Assembly (NCBI RefSeq): GCF_006538365.1
Contig: NZ_BJKN01000001.1
Span: 799,639 to 863,638 of the forward strand
DNA: 64,000 nt
Source: Moorella sp. E308F
GTDB taxonomy: Bacteria > Bacillota > DSM-521 > Neomoorellales > Neomoorellaceae
Reading direction: 5' to 3'
The notes beneath the pieces are model-generated. The model did no database searches. It was not told where the DNA came from and worked only from the letters and a program-made list of their open reading frames with translations. Positions 36,499 through 47,894 of the stretch are shown piece by piece (positions within the stretch are counted from its first letter, which is position 1; the number at the start of each line of letters is the position of its first letter). A program made the translations under genes and the position numbers.

Positions 36499-37314
36499 AT
36501 GCTGGAAAAATCAACTGCTGCCTGGAATGATATCCTGGAATTTCCAATTGGTGGACGCCAGCAAAAACCCAGGCGGGCAGGATTGACCATGGTTATTGAC
36601 AAGGGCCTGGGGCTTACAGAGTTCAAGGATTTGCTGGAGGTGGCAGCACCCTATATTGATTTTATAAAACTTGGTTTCGGCACCTCTGTCTTTTACCCGG
36701 CGGCTATTTTACAGGAAAAAATTCGCCTGGCACGCTCTTATAGTGTTGATATTTTTCCCGGCGGCACCTTCTTTGAAGTCGCCGTTCTCCAGGGGCGGCT
36801 GAACCTTTACCTGCAAACAGCCAGGGAATTTGGATATTCTTTTATTGAAATCTCCGATGGAACTATTGACATGAGCCGAACTGTGCGGATGGCGGCGGTG
36901 CGTCAGGCCCGGGCGGCAGGTTTTGGCGTCATAACTGAAGTGGGCAAGAAGGACCCACGGGATGCCTTAAGCACAGCCTATCTCCTGAGCCAGATTGCCG
37001 TCGACCTGGAGGCGGGAGCCGACTATGTCATCGTCGAGGGCCGGGAATCAGGTCAGGGAGTCGTCATTTACGACAGCCGCGGGTCTGTCAAAGAAGATAT
37101 ACTGGACAGCCTGCTGGCAGGCATCAAGGAGCCGGAACGGGTCATCTGGGAAGCTCCCCAGAAGCAGCAGCAGCAGGCCTTAATAATGCGCCTGGGACCC
37201 AATGTTAACCTGGGCAATGTCCAGCCAGGGGATGTCCTGGCCCTGGAAGCCCTGCGGGTGGGACTGCGGGGCGATACCTTGAGGACTACCCTGAAGGTGG
37301 CTGAAGTAAGTTAA
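36499..37314 (+). CDS. comA: Phosphosulfolactate synthase
   Basis: Adds sulfite to phosphoenolpyruvate to give (2R)-3-phosphosulfolactate, the first step to sulfolactate and, in methanogens, coenzyme M. The 271-residue TIM-barrel protein shows GLTMVIDKGLGLTEFKDLLE, IKLGFGTSVFYP and IEISDGTIDMS, matching the ComA/YitD family from memory. comB follows after a terminator-like hairpin, which strongly supports the assignment. comC or coenzyme M genes are not present here. In Bacillus the equivalent pathway makes 3-sulfolactate in spores. Confidence 0.9.
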   Translation: MLEKSTAAWNDILEFPIGGRQQKPRRAGLTMVIDKGLGLTEFKDLLEVAAPYIDFIKLGFGTSVFYPAAILQEKIRLARSYSVDIFPGGTFFEVAVLQGRLNLYLQTAREFGYSFIEISDGTIDMSRTVRMAAVRQARAAGFGVITEVGKKDPRDALSTAYLLSQIAVDLEAGADYVIVEGRESGQGVVIYDSRGSVKEDILDSLLAGIKEPERVIWEAPQKQQQQALIMRLGPNVNLGNVQPGDVLALEALRVGLRGDTLRTTLKVAEVS

Positions 37315-37328
37315 GAGTTAAGAAATAT

Positions 37329-37371
37329 GGGAAGCGGGAGCCGGTGGCGGGGTTCCTGCTTCCCGTTTAAT
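37329..37371 (+). terminator. Terminator or attenuator between comA and comB
   Basis: GGGAAGCGGGA (37329-37339) pairs with TCCTGCTTCCC (37354-37364) over 11 bp with one wobble, followed by GTTTAATTATT. Confidence 0.65.
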
Positions 37372-37457
37372 TATTACCTTTAACTTTCGGCGGCAGGAAT
37401 CTGCCCTATCTTTCGCGAATAACTACTGACCGGAAAGAGTTGGAGGTGCGATTGGGT

Positions 37458-38177
37458 TTGGAAATCGATGTCTTTACGGGAATAAATGGTATACCGGATG
37501 AGGCCATTAATAATAAAGCGGTCATAGTAATTGATGTGCTGCGGGCAACGACCACCATTTCGGTGGCCCTGGCGGCCGGTTGCCTGGAGGTAATTCCTGT
37601 CCTAACCCCCGAGGAAGCCATCGATATGCGCGAGCGTCTGGAGGACGAGCGGGTACTCCTTGGGGGTGAGCGCAATGCTTTAAAAATACCGGGCTTTGAC
37701 CTGGGCAATTCCCCCCTGGAGTATACCCCTGAAATTGTTGCCGGCAAAAGGTTGATTATGACCACTACCAACGGCACCAGGGCCATTCGCCGGGCCGCAG
37801 GCGGCCGCCAGGTATTCCTGGGTGCCATGATCAACGCTCCGGCTGTGGCCGGGCTGGCTGCTGCAGCAGCAACGGATATAACCATAATTTGTGCCGGTAC
37901 CAGGGATCGTTTCTCCCTGGAAGATTTTTTGGCAGCCGGGTTACTGGTCGACCGGCTTGCCGGGCTGGGAGAATTTGTCTTGCGCGACGGCGCTCTAACT
38001 GCAAGGGATTATTATTACTGCCACCGGGATGATCCCTCGGCAGCTATGAAAGCTAGTTTCCATGGCCGGCTCCTGGCTGACCTGGGACTGGAAGCGGATG
38101 TAGAATTCTGTTCCCGGGTGGGCGCGATTGATGTCGTTCCGGTGTATGGGGGCGGTATTATTAAAAAGGCCGGCTAA
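37458..38177 (+). CDS. comB: 2-phosphosulfolactate phosphatase
   Basis: Removes phosphate from phosphosulfolactate to give sulfolactate. The 239-residue protein has AVIVIDVLRATTTISVALAA near the N-terminus, LGGERNALKIPGFDLGNSP and the loop MTTTNGTRAI, all characteristic of ComB. TTG at 37458 is preferred: GGAGGTG (37442-37448) is nine bases upstream, and the protein then opens EIDVFTG as expected. An earlier TTG at 37440 overlaps that site. Pairing with comA indicates a sulfolactate pathway. Confidence 0.9.
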   Translation: MEIDVFTGINGIPDEAINNKAVIVIDVLRATTTISVALAAGCLEVIPVLTPEEAIDMRERLEDERVLLGGERNALKIPGFDLGNSPLEYTPEIVAGKRLIMTTTNGTRAIRRAAGGRQVFLGAMINAPAVAGLAAAAATDITIICAGTRDRFSLEDFLAAGLLVDRLAGLGEFVLRDGALTARDYYYCHRDDPSAAMKASFHGRLLADLGLEADVEFCSRVGAIDVVPVYGGGIIKKAG

Positions 38178-38898: not shown

Positions 38899-40167
38899 AT
38901 GGCTAAGCTATTAGAGTATCAAGGCAAGGAATGGTTACGCAAGGCGGGGATTCCGGTTCCTGTGGGCCGGGCTGCATCCTCGCCGGAAGAAGCGGAACAG
39001 ATTGCGGCGGAGATGGGTAAGCCCGTCGCAGTAAAGGCCCAGGTGCAGGCTGGCGGCAGGGGTAAGTCAGGAGCGGTAAAACTAGTCGACACCCCGGCAG
39101 AAGCCCGGGCGGCAGCAGCATCGATTCTTGGAACGGTAATTAAAGGCTATCCGGTACGCAAGGTCCTGGTGGAAGAGAAACTTAATATCGCCCGGGAATA
39201 TTACGTGACTATTATTGTTAATTCAGCTCGCAATGCCCGCTGCCCCATGATGATGTTCAGCACCGAGGGCGGTATGGACATCGAAAGTGTTCCGGAAGAG
39301 AAGATTTTTAAGCTTTTAATTTCACCCTTAAACGGCCTGGAAGTTTATGACGCTGTCGACATGCTGGTTCAGGCCGGCATCCCCAACGACCAGCTGATGA
39401 CCTTTGCCAATATCTTGGTCAAGCTGTGGAATGCTTATAAAAAGTATGATTGCTTTACCCTGGAAATCAACCCCTTGGTCTTAACCGCCAGCGGGGAACT
39501 GGTGGCGGCCGACTGCAAGATGGAGGTTGACAACAGCAGCGTTTACCGTCACCCGGAAATGGGTATTGAAATTGCCAGGGACTTCCCCCACGAGCCCACG
39601 GAACTGGACCGTATCGGTTGGGGCATTGAAAAGACCGACACCCGCGGTTCCGGTTTCGTCATGAGCATGGGCTTTGACGAGAAAAGTCCGGGTTATATCG
39701 GCTACCATCCCATCGGCGGCGGATCGGCCATGATGGGCATGGACGCTCTGAACAAGGTCAACCTGAAGCCGGCGAACTACGCAGACACCAGCGGCAATCC
39801 GGTTGCTTCCAAAGTGTACCGGGTAGCCAAGGTTGTTCTCTCGCAGCCCAACATTGATGGCTACCTGCTGGGCGGCTTTATGATGGCCAACCAGGAACAA
39901 TGGCACCACGCCCACGCCGTCGTGAAGGCCCTGCGGGAAGTCCTGCCCAAAAAACCCGGTCTGCCCTGTGTGTTACTGCTGTGCGGTAACAAGGAAGAAG
40001 AATCCCTCGCCATTTTACGCGAAGGGTTAAGCAATGTTGAGGGTGCTACCAGGGTGGAGATCTACGGCCGGGAGCATGTTACCGATACTGATTTTATCGG
40101 GCAAAGGTTATTGGCCCTTGTTAAAGAATATCAAGCCGAAAAGCGAAAGCAGGGTGGAAACCAGTGA
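38899..40167 (+). CDS. Divergent ADP-forming acyl-CoA ligase, beta subunit (SucC/MtkA-like)
   Basis: A 422-residue ATP-grasp protein related to succinyl-CoA synthetase and malate-CoA ligase beta subunits. The N-terminal ATP-grasp region is well conserved (LLEYQGKEWLRKAGIPVP, AVKAQVQAGGRGKSGAVKL, LEINPLVLTASGEL). The C-terminal CoA-ligase half is not: the usual NGAGLAM and PANFLDVGG read GGGSAMM and PANYADTSG, and the NIFGGI segment is replaced by GGFMMANQEQWHHA. This suggests a distinct subfamily with a different acyl substrate. Given the neighbours (malyl-CoA lyase and malic enzyme), malyl-CoA/malate is the best guess. The stop overlaps the next gene by two bases. Confidence 0.75.
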   Translation: MAKLLEYQGKEWLRKAGIPVPVGRAASSPEEAEQIAAEMGKPVAVKAQVQAGGRGKSGAVKLVDTPAEARAAAASILGTVIKGYPVRKVLVEEKLNIAREYYVTIIVNSARNARCPMMMFSTEGGMDIESVPEEKIFKLLISPLNGLEVYDAVDMLVQAGIPNDQLMTFANILVKLWNAYKKYDCFTLEINPLVLTASGELVAADCKMEVDNSSVYRHPEMGIEIARDFPHEPTELDRIGWGIEKTDTRGSGFVMSMGFDEKSPGYIGYHPIGGGSAMMGMDALNKVNLKPANYADTSGNPVASKVYRVAKVVLSQPNIDGYLLGGFMMANQEQWHHAHAVVKALREVLPKKPGLPCVLLLCGNKEEESLAILREGLSNVEGATRVEIYGREHVTDTDFIGQRLLALVKEYQAEKRKQGGNQ

Positions 40168-40472
40168 TTGAATTCTGGGAAAGAACAATTAAAGTTACCA
40201 TCGACACCAGCAAGTGCACCGAGTGTGAAACAAAGGCCTGTATCGACGCATGCAAGAAGTTTGCCCGGGGGATGCTGCAGCTCCAGGACGGCGCACCCTC
40301 TGTGGCCCACCTGAGTGAAGATGAAATAAAACGCCGGGGAACAGAATGCCTTGCCTGCGAGTATGAATGCTGGTTCCGCGGCAAGAGCGCCATAAAAATT
40401 GACGTTCCCATTGAAGGAATGGATGAGTACCTGCGCAAGCGGGGCCTGCTTGAAGATAACGCCAACCAGTAA
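40164..40472 (+). CDS. Small cysteine-rich, ferredoxin-like protein between ligase subunits
   Basis: A 102-residue soluble protein with seven cysteines: C18, C21, C26 and C30 (CxxCx4Cx3C), then C62, C65 and C69 (CxxCx3C). The spacing is like iron-sulfur proteins but not the classical CxxCxxCxxxCP ferredoxin pattern. It may hold one or two Fe-S clusters or zinc. The GTG start overlaps the stop of the ligase beta gene (GTGA), and the alpha-subunit gene follows 20 bp later, so it is translated with both subunits and may be a subunit or redox regulator of the ligase. I recognise no named family. Confidence 0.7.
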   Translation: MIEFWERTIKVTIDTSKCTECETKACIDACKKFARGMLQLQDGAPSVAHLSEDEIKRRGTECLACEYECWFRGKSAIKIDVPIEGMDEYLRKRGLLEDNANQ

Positions 40473-40492: not shown

Positions 40493-41389
40493 ATGGGGAT
40501 TTTAATTGATAGAAACACCAAGGTTATTGTTCAGGGAATTACCGGTAGGGAGGGTTCCCTCCGGGCCAAATATATGAAGGATTACGGCACGAAGGTTGTG
40601 GCCGGGACGAGCCCCGGTAAGGGCGGCGAAGAGGTAGCGGGCATTCCCGTCTATCATACCGTCAAGCAGGCCGTAGCCGAACACGGGGAAATTGACTTCA
40701 GCGTTATCTTCGTACCCGGCCGGGCTTTGAAAACAGCGGTTAAAGAAGCCGCCGACGCCGGCGTGAAAAATATCGTCCCCTGCGTGGAATCGGTCCCTAT
40801 CCATGACATCATGGAAATGGTGGAGTACTGCAAGCTGAAGGGGACCAGGCTCATCGGCCCGGGCTCCATCGGCATCATTACGCCTGGAGAGGCGGTAGTC
40901 GGCTGGCTGGGCGGCAATGTAGAATGGGCCAACTCCTTTTTCCGGCCCGGTCCGATCGGTGTTTTCTCCCGCAGCGGCGGCCAGTCGGGTACTATTCCCT
41001 GGATCCTTAAGGAAAACGGTTACGGCGTCAGCACCGTCGTTCACACGGGTACGGAACCGGTCCTGGGGACTTCCTTCGCTGACCTGCTGCCCCTTTTTGA
41101 AGAAGACCCCCAGACGGAAGCCGTAGCGGTATTTTCTGAGATCGGCGGTACCCAGGAAGAAGAATGCGCGGAAGTAATTGCCGCCGGGAAATTTACCAAA
41201 CCCTTCGTCATCTACGTGGCAGGTGCTTGGGCACCGGAAGGCCAGCGCTTCTCCCACGCCTCCAGCATTGTGGAACGGGGCCGCGGTTCGGCCAAGAGCA
41301 AGATGGAAGCCATCCAGAAAGCTGGTGGCTACGTGGCCATGAGCCCCAATGATATCCCGCGTATCCTCAAAAACGTACTCAAGCATTAG
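40493..41389 (+). CDS. Divergent ADP-forming acyl-CoA ligase, alpha subunit (SucD/MtkB-like)
   Basis: A 298-residue protein of the succinyl-CoA synthetase alpha type. The N-terminal CoA-binding domain is recognisable ([27 protein letters not shown]). The phospho-histidine is kept at His255 in SHASSI, where the family normally has GHAGAI. Other motifs have drifted: SRSGTLTYE becomes SRSGGQSGT, and GIGGDPI becomes HTGTEPV, while [12 protein letters not shown] is preserved. Activity is likely retained, but substrate selection probably differs from succinate. It partners the beta subunit at 38899 and lies 13 bp before the lyase gene. Confidence 0.75.
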
Positions 41390-41402: not shown

Positions 41403-42302
41403 ATGCCTGTAATGCGCTCTGTCCTTTACGTTCCCGGCAATAACCCCAGGATGATTGCCAAAGCACCCACTTTCCCCGCCGATATAATCACCCTCGACCT
41501 GGAAGATTCCGTGCCCCCGGCGGAGAAGGAAAATGCGCGGAAACTTATCCGCGAGAACCTGAAGGCTGTTGGGGCCAACGGGTCGGAGGTATACGTGCGC
41601 ATCAACAACTGGGAGACCGAGATGACCAACGACGACCTGGAGGCCGTTGTTTATGAGGGACTCCACGGGGTTACCCTGGCCAAGTGCGGGCATCCGGACC
41701 ACGTCAAGCGCCTGGACTGGAAACTGGAAGAACTGGAACGCCGCCGCGGTCTACCTATAGGGAGCATTAAGGTTTCCCTGCTCCTGGAAACCGCGAAAGG
41801 TATTATCAATGCCTATGAATCCTGCATCGCCAGCCCGCGGGTGGTCAGTGCCATCTTCGGTGCCGTGGACTACTGCAAGGATATGCGGGTCAAACTGACC
41901 TCGGAAGGCAAAGAGCAGGAATACGCCCGCGCCCATATGGCAGTTGCCGCCCGGGCGGCAGGGGTGGTAGCCATTGACTGTCCGTTTGTTGCCTATCAGG
42001 ATATGGAAGCATTTGAAAAGAGTGTTCTCCAGGGGCGGCAGATGGGATATGAAGGCCGGATGCTGATCCATCCCAGCCAGGTTGAGCCTGCCAATCGTCT
42101 CTACTCCCCGGACCCTGCCGACGTGGAATGGGCCCGCGGCGTCGTAAAAGCCTTTGAAGAAGAAGCCATTGCCCAGGGTAAGGCTGCCATTTCCTACCAG
42201 GGCAAGATGGTCGACACGCCTGTTTACCTCAACGCCAAGGATATCTTGAACGCCTACGAAGAGATCCAGGCTAAAGATGCCGCCAGGAAGAAGAACGCTT
42301 AA
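41403..42302 (+). CDS. HpcH/HpaI (CitE/malyl-CoA lyase) family protein
   Basis: A 299-residue TIM-barrel lyase that cleaves or forms beta-hydroxyacyl-CoA esters. Conserved parts: RSVLYVPGNNPRMIAK, the acidic ITLDLEDSVPP, the metal-binding Glu in LLLETAKGIINAYE and Asp in GAVDYCKDM, and the end signature IHPSQVEPANRLYSP. Family members include malyl-CoA lyase, citryl-CoA lyase and citramalyl-CoA lyase. The flanking CoA-ligase and malic-enzyme genes favour malyl-CoA (glyoxylate plus acetyl-CoA). An AGGAGG site precedes the ATG. Confidence 0.82.
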   Translation: MPVMRSVLYVPGNNPRMIAKAPTFPADIITLDLEDSVPPAEKENARKLIRENLKAVGANGSEVYVRINNWETEMTNDDLEAVVYEGLHGVTLAKCGHPDHVKRLDWKLEELERRRGLPIGSIKVSLLLETAKGIINAYESCIASPRVVSAIFGAVDYCKDMRVKLTSEGKEQEYARAHMAVAARAAGVVAIDCPFVAYQDMEAFEKSVLQGRQMGYEGRMLIHPSQVEPANRLYSPDPADVEWARGVVKAFEEEAIAQGKAAISYQGKMVDTPVYLNAKDILNAYEEIQAKDAARKKNA

Positions 42303-42435: not shown

Positions 42436-43662
42436 GTGAATACCCAGGAAAGAGCCCTGCAGCTGCATAAGGAATGGCAGGGTAAAATCGAAGTACGGGG
42501 GCGGGTACAGGTCCGGGATGGGACGGATCTTTCCCTGGCCTATACTCCCGGTGTCGCCGAGCCCTGCAAAGAAATCCATAAAGATCCCAAACTCGTTGAC
42601 GTCTACACCCGGCGCTGGAACCAGGTTGCCGTAGTATCCGACGGCTCGGCGGTCCTTGGCCTCGGTAACATTGGCGCCCGGGCGGCCATGCCCGTTATGG
42701 AAGGGAAAAGCCTGCTTTTTAAAACCTTTGCCGGTGTCGATGCCTTCCCCATCTGCATCGATTCCCAGGATGTAGATGAGATTGTCAGGACAGTCCAGCT
42801 CCTGACCCCCACCTTTGGCGGCGTCAACCTGGAGGATATTGCCGCGCCCCGCTGTTTTGAAATCGAGCGACGCCTCAAGGAAACCACTGACATTCCTATC
42901 TTCCACGACGACCAGCACGGTACGGCCGTAGTCGTATTGAGCGGGATTATCAACGCCTGTAAGATCACCAAGCGGGAGCTGGGTGATCTCAAGGTAGTGA
43001 TCAACGGCGCCGGGGCGGCCGGCATTGCCACTGCCAAGCTCCTGCTCAGCGTGGGCGTAAAAGACGTGATCCTCTGCGATTCCCGGGGAATTATCTCCTC
43101 AAAGCGCCAGGACCTCAATGCGGAAAAACAGGAAATGCTCAAGATCACGAACAAAGAAGACCGCAGCGGCACCCTGGCCGACGCCATGGTAGGCGCCAAC
43201 TGCTTTATCGGCCTCTCTGTCAAAGACGCCGTTAATCAGGATATGGTACGCTCCATGGGTAAAGACCCCATTATCTTTGCCATGGCTAACCCCGTTCCGG
43301 AAATCTATCCCGATAAGGCGCGGGAAGCCGGCGCCGCCGTTGTGGGCACGGGGCGGAGCGACTTCCCCAACCAGGTCAATAATGTCCTGGGCTTCCCCGG
43401 CATCTTCCGCGGTGCCCTTGACGTGAAGGCTTCCGATATCAATGAACCGATGAAGATTGCCGCCGCCCATGCCCTGGCCGACCTGGTGGGCGACAGGCTC
43501 TCACCTGATTTCGTCATGCCGGAAGCCTTCGACCTGCGGGTGGCACCGGCGGTGGCAGCGGCCGTAGCCAAGGCCGCCATGGAGAGTGGCGTGGCTCGCG
43601 AGCCGAAGGACCCCGAGTGGGTGAAGAAACATACGGAAGAGCTGATCGGCCTGGCGAAATAA
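42436..43662 (+). CDS. NAD(P)-dependent malic enzyme, short bacterial type
   Basis: Oxidatively decarboxylates malate to pyruvate and CO2. The 408-residue protein has the catalytic tyrosine in [11 protein letters not shown], the lysine in [19 protein letters not shown], the metal-binding [12 protein letters not shown] and [10 protein letters not shown], and a Rossmann coenzyme domain with [16 protein letters not shown]. No phosphotransacetylase domain is fused, unlike E. coli MaeB. Cofactor preference is not evident. GTG at 42436 is the start. As last gene in the malyl-CoA cluster it would pull malate to pyruvate, feeding acetyl-CoA synthesis. Confidence 0.92.
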
Positions 43663-47309: not shown

Positions 47310-47894
47310 ATGGTGGAAAAAATAGTAGATGCCCGCGGGCTGGCCTGCCCGCAACCGGTTATCCAGACCAAAAAGGCCCTGGAAAGTTTGGGGCCGGATG
47401 GAGAGCTGGTTACCATTGTCGATAATGAGGTCGCCCGGGACAATGTTTTAAAACTGGCGCGGAGCCTGGAGTGCGCTACCAGCGTCAGGGAACAGGGAAG
47501 TGAATACTATATCCATATTCGCAAGGAAAGCATACCGGCTACCCAGTTAAGCGTTAATCCGGGCCAGGTATTGCTGGTAACCTCGGCCAGCCTGGGCCGC
47601 GGTTCGGAAGAGCTGGGGAGCATCCTCATGCGCAGCTTCTTTTACAGCTTGAGTGAAACGGAAGTGCTGCCCCGGCGGGTTCTCTTTATCAACAGTGGTG
47701 TCCAGCTCTGCTGCCAGGGTTCACCGGTGCTGGACAGCCTGCTGGCTCTGGAGCAAAAGGGAGTGGAAATCCTGGCCTGCGGCACCTGCCTGGACTATTA
47801 CCACCTGAAAGAAAAATTGTGTGCCGGTAGCGTTACCAATATGTATACCATCATTGAACACCTTATGGCTGCGGAAAAGGTAATTACCCTCTAG
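47310..47894 (+). CDS. yedF: YedF-type selenium/sulfur metabolism protein (TusA plus DsrE-like)
   Basis: A 194-residue two-domain protein. The N-terminal TusA domain (about 1-72) carries the sulfur-handling Cys13 in RGLACPQPV. The C-terminal DsrE-like domain (about 90-190) has VQLCCQGSPVLDSL and ACGTCLDYYHL. This fusion is found mainly in selenium-using bacteria and is annotated as selenium metabolism protein YedF. Selenocysteine enzymes such as formate dehydrogenase fit an acetogen. No selD or selA gene is nearby. Confidence 0.9.
   Translation: MVEKIVDARGLACPQPVIQTKKALESLGPDGELVTIVDNEVARDNVLKLARSLECATSVREQGSEYYIHIRKESIPATQLSVNPGQVLLVTSASLGRGSEELGSILMRSFFYSLSETEVLPRRVLFINSGVQLCCQGSPVLDSLLALEQKGVEILACGTCLDYYHLKEKLCAGSVTNMYTIIEHLMAAEKVITL

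Follow-up and report, generated by a model that had tools for sequence, protein, structure and literature searches.

The Ligase Locus

The window, i.e., the whole stretch of 64,000 nucleotides of Moorella sp. E308F DNA that was analyzed, contains a set of forward-strand genes in which a small cysteine-rich gene lies between the genes for the two subunits of an acyl-CoA ligase. The upstream gene, beta (38899..40167), encodes a SucC-like protein of 422 amino acids with an ATP-grasp_2 domain (PF08442, 8.4e-55), and the downstream gene, alpha (40493..41389), encodes a SucD-like protein of 298 amino acids with CoA_binding (PF02629, 4.5e-25) and Ligase_CoA (PF00549, 3.6e-10) domains. Together, beta and alpha have the domains of an NDP-forming acyl-CoA synthetase of the SucCD type, and the putative phospho-histidine of alpha, H255, is present in 125/125 aligned alpha sequences, both with and without an Fe-S gene. 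The gene between them, here called gamma (40164..40472), starts with GTG and encodes a protein of 102 amino acids, which is predicted to be a ferredoxin-like third subunit from its conservation, a structure model, and its similarity to FixX. Alpha is followed by the gene for a CitE/HpcH-type lyase, a predicted malyl-CoA lyase (41403..42302; 299 amino acids; PF03328, 3.3e-46), and then by a gene for an NAD(P)-malic enzyme (42436..43662; 408 amino acids).

The original prediction had described an open reading frame with seven cysteines in two clusters, whose start overlaps the beta stop codon and which is followed immediately by alpha. These features are indeed present: the beta TGA (40165-40167) overlaps the start of gamma within the sequence GTGA, alpha begins at 40493, 20 nt past the gamma stop, and the seven cysteines are C18, C21, C26, C30, C62, C65, and C69. 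The accompanying claim, that the cysteine spacing is foreign to ferredoxins, does not hold. Motif I, C18-x2-C21-x4-C26-x3-C30 (CxxCx4CxxxC), is of the FixX type, and motif II, G59-x2-C62-x2-C65-x3-C69, is a CxxCxxCxxxC motif whose first cysteine has been replaced by G59.

Conservation of Gamma

A scan of one genome per species, covering 84,980 species, found 66 further gamma loci, whose proteins are 33-89% identical (most 48-89%). Because homologues occupy the same place in these 66 other loci, the reading frame is not a product of chance, and the idea of a spurious gene or a fortuitous cluster of cysteines was discarded. The hosts are Moorella and other Bacillota, Desulfobacterota/Syntrophales (Deltaproteobacteria), Actinobacteria, and Chloroflexi, together with single MAGs assigned to Thiobacillaceae, a Nitrososphaeria archaeon, and Pirellulales (Planctomycetes); it should be noted that these taxa are named as in the records and that many of the genomes are MAGs, in which mis-binning is possible. 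The order beta-gamma-alpha is found wherever the contig reaches, with beta upstream at 62/62 loci and alpha downstream at 66/66, the median gaps around gamma are 12 and 20 nt, and a CitE-type lyase gene directly follows alpha at 63 of the 65 evaluable loci. All seven cysteines are invariant in 66 of the 67 sequences, the exception (L065) being a broken MAG gene that retains the second motif only. The sequence TECLACE is, like the cysteines, essentially invariant.

The original prediction had raised the question of whether homologues always lie between SucC/SucD-like genes, and they do so at all loci where the contig allows it to be seen. In profile searches of the wider family (about 1070 genomes, E<=1e-8), every further member adjoins alpha and beta, and no homologue was found in an unrelated context with a known role. 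Located elsewhere than beside the ligase in these genomes are only FixX-type ferredoxins, which are remote relatives of gamma. The notion that gamma is a free ferredoxin of many contexts was consequently rejected, since every match at this threshold in the about 1070 genomes adjoins a ligase. One locus, L182 (4580-4903), has a rearranged motif I, C-x12-C-x3-C-x3-C, and an Asp at the site of the missing cysteine, within the same beta-gamma-alpha-lyase order.

In several divergent relatives, beta continues in frame, past its C-terminus, into a gamma-type Fe-S domain. Such fusions occur in L066 (554 amino acids), L085 (508), L110/L180 (515 in L180), L118 (515), and L119 (511), and the predicted model of the L180 fusion (pTM 0.86) has a beta part that matches SucC. 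An eighth cysteine, three residues before C62, is present in L066, L084, L085, L088, L110, L117, L118, L119, and L180, among which L084 and L117 are unfused. Motif II in these proteins is therefore an ordinary CxxCxxCxxxC, where the main clade has Gly. Within the malyl-CoA clade, only L066, an eight-cysteine form beside a CitE-type lyase, retains the first cysteine of motif II.

The partners of the distant relatives also differ. A citryl-CoA-lyase-like protein is encoded next to alpha in L085 and is fused to alpha in L118; L180 and L181 likewise have a citryl-CoA-lyase-like partner, as judged by eye. In L084 the partner is an HMG-CoA-lyase-like protein, and an HMG-CoA reductase gene lies nearby in L086. 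Because of these citryl-CoA-lyase-like and HMG-CoA-lyase-like partners, the Fe-S module can be said to follow the ligase rather than one particular lyase. Two of these settings deserve mention in their own right. The ATP-citrate-lyase-like ligase-lyase sets of L118 (5868-7565), L180 (5977-6750), and L085 (6086-6775), in which beta carries a C-terminal eight-cysteine ferredoxin-like domain, are possibly a form of ATP-citrate lyase that has not been described. In L084 (5548-10752), from a genome of the same family as the window, the Fe-S ligase genes are flanked by aconitase-type LeuC/LeuD-like genes on one side and by the HMG-CoA-lyase-like gene on the other, a setting that suggests a separate hydroxy-acid pathway.

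A Distinct Clade of Ligases

The ligases that have gamma form a group of their own. Scored with the alpha profile, 148 Desulfobacterota genomes contain nine alphas of 513 bits or more, and the next are at 310 bits or below; in the window's phylum (199 genomes), seven alphas reach 522 bits or more and one reaches 387, while the next do not exceed 326. The Fe-S gene is present with every alpha of the clade (at least 387 bits), i.e., 9/9 in the Desulfobacterota and 8/8 in the window's phylum, and the nearest alphas outside the clade have neither a gamma gene nor a matching four-cysteine motif upstream. Ligase clade and gamma thus co-occur one to one in the sampled genomes, where all close relatives of the ligase are accompanied by gamma. 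In a tree of 125 alphas, the presence of the Fe-S gene corresponds to one change, on a single branch that splits 82 sequences from 43 (support 97/87) and that is recovered in 98% of 200 bootstrap trees; because the position of the root is not fixed, this change may be read as either gain or loss of the gene. As a descriptive measure, the pairwise distances of gamma track those of beta (r 0.84) and alpha (r 0.83) more than those of the lyase (0.74).

SucCD-type ligases without an Fe-S gene do occur next to CitE-type lyases, in L133, L158, L164, and L176. Since these ligases have no such subunit, the Fe-S domain would not be needed for the ligase chemistry as such, and the idea that it is required in any operon of the malyl-CoA type was abandoned. 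Together with L137, L162, and L167, where a SucCD-type ligase also adjoins a CitE-type lyase without an Fe-S gene, they are separated in the tree from the ligases that have gamma and offer natural controls for what the subunit does.

The original prediction had suggested a third subunit of the ligase, and this suggestion now has strong support at the sequence level from the invariant gene order, the fusions to beta, the one-to-one co-occurrence, and the single tree branch. On balance, gamma is best taken to be a third subunit that belongs specifically to this separate clade of ligases. The known enzymes of the NDP-forming acyl-CoA synthetase superfamily are described as alpha plus beta or as fusions of both. 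To our knowledge, succinyl-CoA synthetase and its relatives are iron-free, textbook two-part enzymes. As in SucCD and citryl-CoA synthetase/ATP-citrate lyase, beta of the Moorella ligase is the ATP-grasp subunit and alpha is the CoA-binding subunit with the phospho-histidine, and the best solved relatives of the two are 3ufx and 2yv2, with 6hxq and 6hxj also matching. However, the Moorella ligase adds the ferredoxin-like gamma and scores under the SucC/SucD equivalog cut-offs (NF001913, 263 versus a cut-off of 370 bits; NF004230, 282 versus 336). A search of titles and abstracts found no paper on an Fe-S subunit of SucCD-type ligases. The gene, its conserved cysteines, the gene order, the fusions, and the shared inheritance can be read directly from sequence; metal content, assembly into a complex, substrate, and gating are inferred. 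The picture is that of a branch of the SucCD superfamily with three parts, one of them a putative Fe-S protein, in a family not previously known to carry such a part.

Predicted Fold of Gamma

Gamma is predicted to be ferredoxin-like. Its AlphaFold model is a confident one (pLDDT 90.5, pTM 0.75), and the structural matches of this model are nearly all dicluster ferredoxin domains, the best being residues 133-208 of the [FeFe]-hydrogenase CpI at a Z of 7.2, which is below 8 and weak when taken alone. Foldseek gave no match at E<=0.001, a PDB sequence search gave nothing beyond weak ferredoxin matches, and the Pfam Fer4 models match gamma only below their cut-offs. An hhalign comparison of gamma to FixX-type ferredoxins from within the same bacterial family gave probabilities of 94-97, this being a single comparison that covered the FixX type alone; the FixX model itself (PF05187) gave no match at E<=1.

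The likeness to FixX (Fer4_ETF_QO, PF05187) consists of motif I, the motif II of the eight-cysteine relatives, and the profile similarity. Gamma differs in being found always with the ligase rather than in a FixABC/ETF-QO setting, in having no C-terminal PRGGFG-type motif, and, in the malyl-CoA clade, in having one cysteine fewer. The predicted fold would be that of dicluster 2[4Fe-4S] and 7Fe ferredoxins, but gamma is tied to a ligase and has seven cysteines instead of the eight, in two four-cysteine motifs, of a dicluster ferredoxin. In 7Fe ferredoxins the lost cysteine belongs to motif I; in gamma, in contrast, motif II has lost its initial cysteine.

By analogy with 2[4Fe-4S] ferredoxins, gamma would hold two clusters, one with the four ligands C18, C21, C26, and C69 and another with the three ligands C30, C62, and C65. 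Because its fourth cysteine is missing, the second site would carry a cluster of either the [3Fe-4S] type or the [4Fe-4S] type, the latter with an open iron. It was asked whether another subunit could supply the missing ligand. Only C206 of beta (39514-39516) fits the pattern, being present in 68/68 cases where gamma is without the eighth cysteine, in 2/7 of the eight-cysteine forms, and in 4/35 of the relatives without Fe-S; it lies in the ATP-grasp domain near the conserved INPL motif, so that such a contribution would be speculative.

Probable Place in the Malyl-CoA Pathway

GlcD is encoded in the neighborhood of 38 of the 66 other loci, a count to be read with the knowledge that GlcD-type genes are common in general and that further ones lie elsewhere in the window's genome. 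Other neighbors encode GlcF-like proteins, LldR/GlcC-like regulators, glyoxylate reductase, and TRAP transporters, and the cassette is followed by a malic enzyme gene not only in Moorella but also in several further Bacillota and Actinobacteria. The lyase falls within the HpcH/HpaI-CitE family, and its structural matches are CitE and malyl-CoA lyase structures. The malyl-CoA-lyase-like, malic enzyme, GlcD/GlcF, and glyoxylate reductase neighbors would place the ligase in the malyl-CoA pathway of glycolate/glyoxylate breakdown. Organisms with gamma loci include Moorella and Desulfofustis glycolicus; Moorella sp. HUC22-1 is reported to ferment glyoxylate via malyl-CoA (PMC8092247), and growth on glycolate/glyoxylate is indicated for Moorella and Desulfofustis by that paper and the titles cited there.

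In the proposed pathway, taken in the catabolic direction, the CitE-type lyase would condense glyoxylate and acetyl-CoA to malyl-CoA; the ligase would convert malyl-CoA, ADP, and Pi to malate, CoA, and ATP; and the malic enzyme would convert malate to pyruvate. The ligase itself would be an ADP-forming malate-CoA ligase of SucC-like beta, ferredoxin-like gamma, and SucD-like alpha, with gamma predicted to be a dicluster ferredoxin-like domain docked at the C-terminus of beta. MtkAB, which with malyl-CoA lyase belongs to the serine cycle, shares the predicted reaction and has its gene beside that of a CitE/HpcH lyase, but the Moorella ligase has the Fe-S subunit, its beta falls short of the malate-CoA ligase beta model (NF010647, 189 versus a cut-off of 604 bits), and it probably runs in the ATP-forming direction in anaerobes. 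Among the curated families, none above its cut-off names gamma or gives malate as the substrate of this ligase. Judged from its neighbors, then, and with both subunits below the curated malate and succinate cut-offs, the enzyme is most likely a malate-CoA ligase running towards ATP, and that gamma is an Fe-S-bearing subunit acting in the malyl-CoA pathway is probable. Another hydroxy acid, such as citramalate or methylmalate, might be the substrate, in which case the Fe-S subunit would be real and the pathway wrong. The scores of ligase and lyase, below all curated equivalog cut-offs, leave room for this; however, it is unlikely given the GlcD, GlcF-like, glyoxylate reductase, and malic enzyme neighbors and the growth substrates just cited.

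Possible Roles of the Fe-S Clusters

Neither the ligase step nor the lyase step involves redox chemistry. For gamma, a structural part is therefore most likely, through which the ligase would also respond to oxygen or redox state. The original prediction had likewise named a redox switch, which is possible; the gating itself is proposed tentatively, and we would sooner doubt it than assert it. The clusters might instead be purely structural, serving to hold the domain together and to assemble beta with alpha in a genuine subunit with no regulatory function. The fixed position of gamma, its fusions to beta, the absence of a redox step, and the maintenance of both seven- and eight-cysteine forms would all fit, and this account comes close to an even chance. 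However, one ligand has been lost, and Gly kept in its place, across nearly the whole malyl-CoA clade, which suggests selection on the properties of the cluster. A structural or redox-gating role is in any case likelier than electron transfer. Were gamma the ferredoxin of glycolate oxidation, partnering GlcD/GlcF as FixX partners FixC and docked on the ligase by chance, its FixX-like spacing and profile and the frequency of GlcD nearby would be accounted for; yet its constant partner is the ligase, not GlcD, and the module also accompanies ligases paired with citryl-CoA-lyase-like or HMG-CoA-lyase-like proteins with no GlcD in view. This makes the electron carrier quite improbable.

Still less probable is that an open iron in the three-cysteine cluster binds malate or the CoA thioester in the manner of aconitase and thereby aids substrate recognition. 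In its favor are the nature of the predicted substrate, which is an alpha-hydroxy acid, and the near-universal loss of the first motif II cysteine in the malyl-CoA clade, which would create such a site. However, no open site is apparent from the sequences of the eight-cysteine relatives, including L066, which lies beside a CitE-type lyase, and SucCD-type active sites need no iron to bind dicarboxylates.

A conserved ferredoxin-like subunit in a whole branch would bring a metal cofactor into the substrate-level phosphorylation of anaerobes that degrade glycolate or glyoxylate. It also indicates where ATP is likely to be formed in the malyl-CoA pathway of Moorella and Desulfofustis, for which gamma could serve as a genomic and metagenomic marker. 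Alpha and beta expressed without gamma might yield an unstable or inactive enzyme. A broader idea, which we regard as doubtful, is that of an Fe-S-dependent ligase branch in which a site-differentiated cluster controls or joins the making and breaking of the hydroxyacyl-CoA bond and couples ATP synthesis to redox state, with one module shared by bacterial and archaeal ligases for malyl-, citryl-, and possibly HMG-type hydroxyacyl-CoA. C206 of beta could be linked to such a role.

Other Genes in the Window

Just upstream of the ligase genes, at 36499-38177, a phosphosulfolactate synthase gene (ComA-type, above cut-off) lies beside a 2-phosphosulfolactate phosphatase-like gene, a pair of the sulfolactate or coenzyme M type in a bacterium. 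Farther downstream, the gene at 47310-47894 encodes a YedF selenium-metabolism sulfurtransferase-like protein, also above cut-off.
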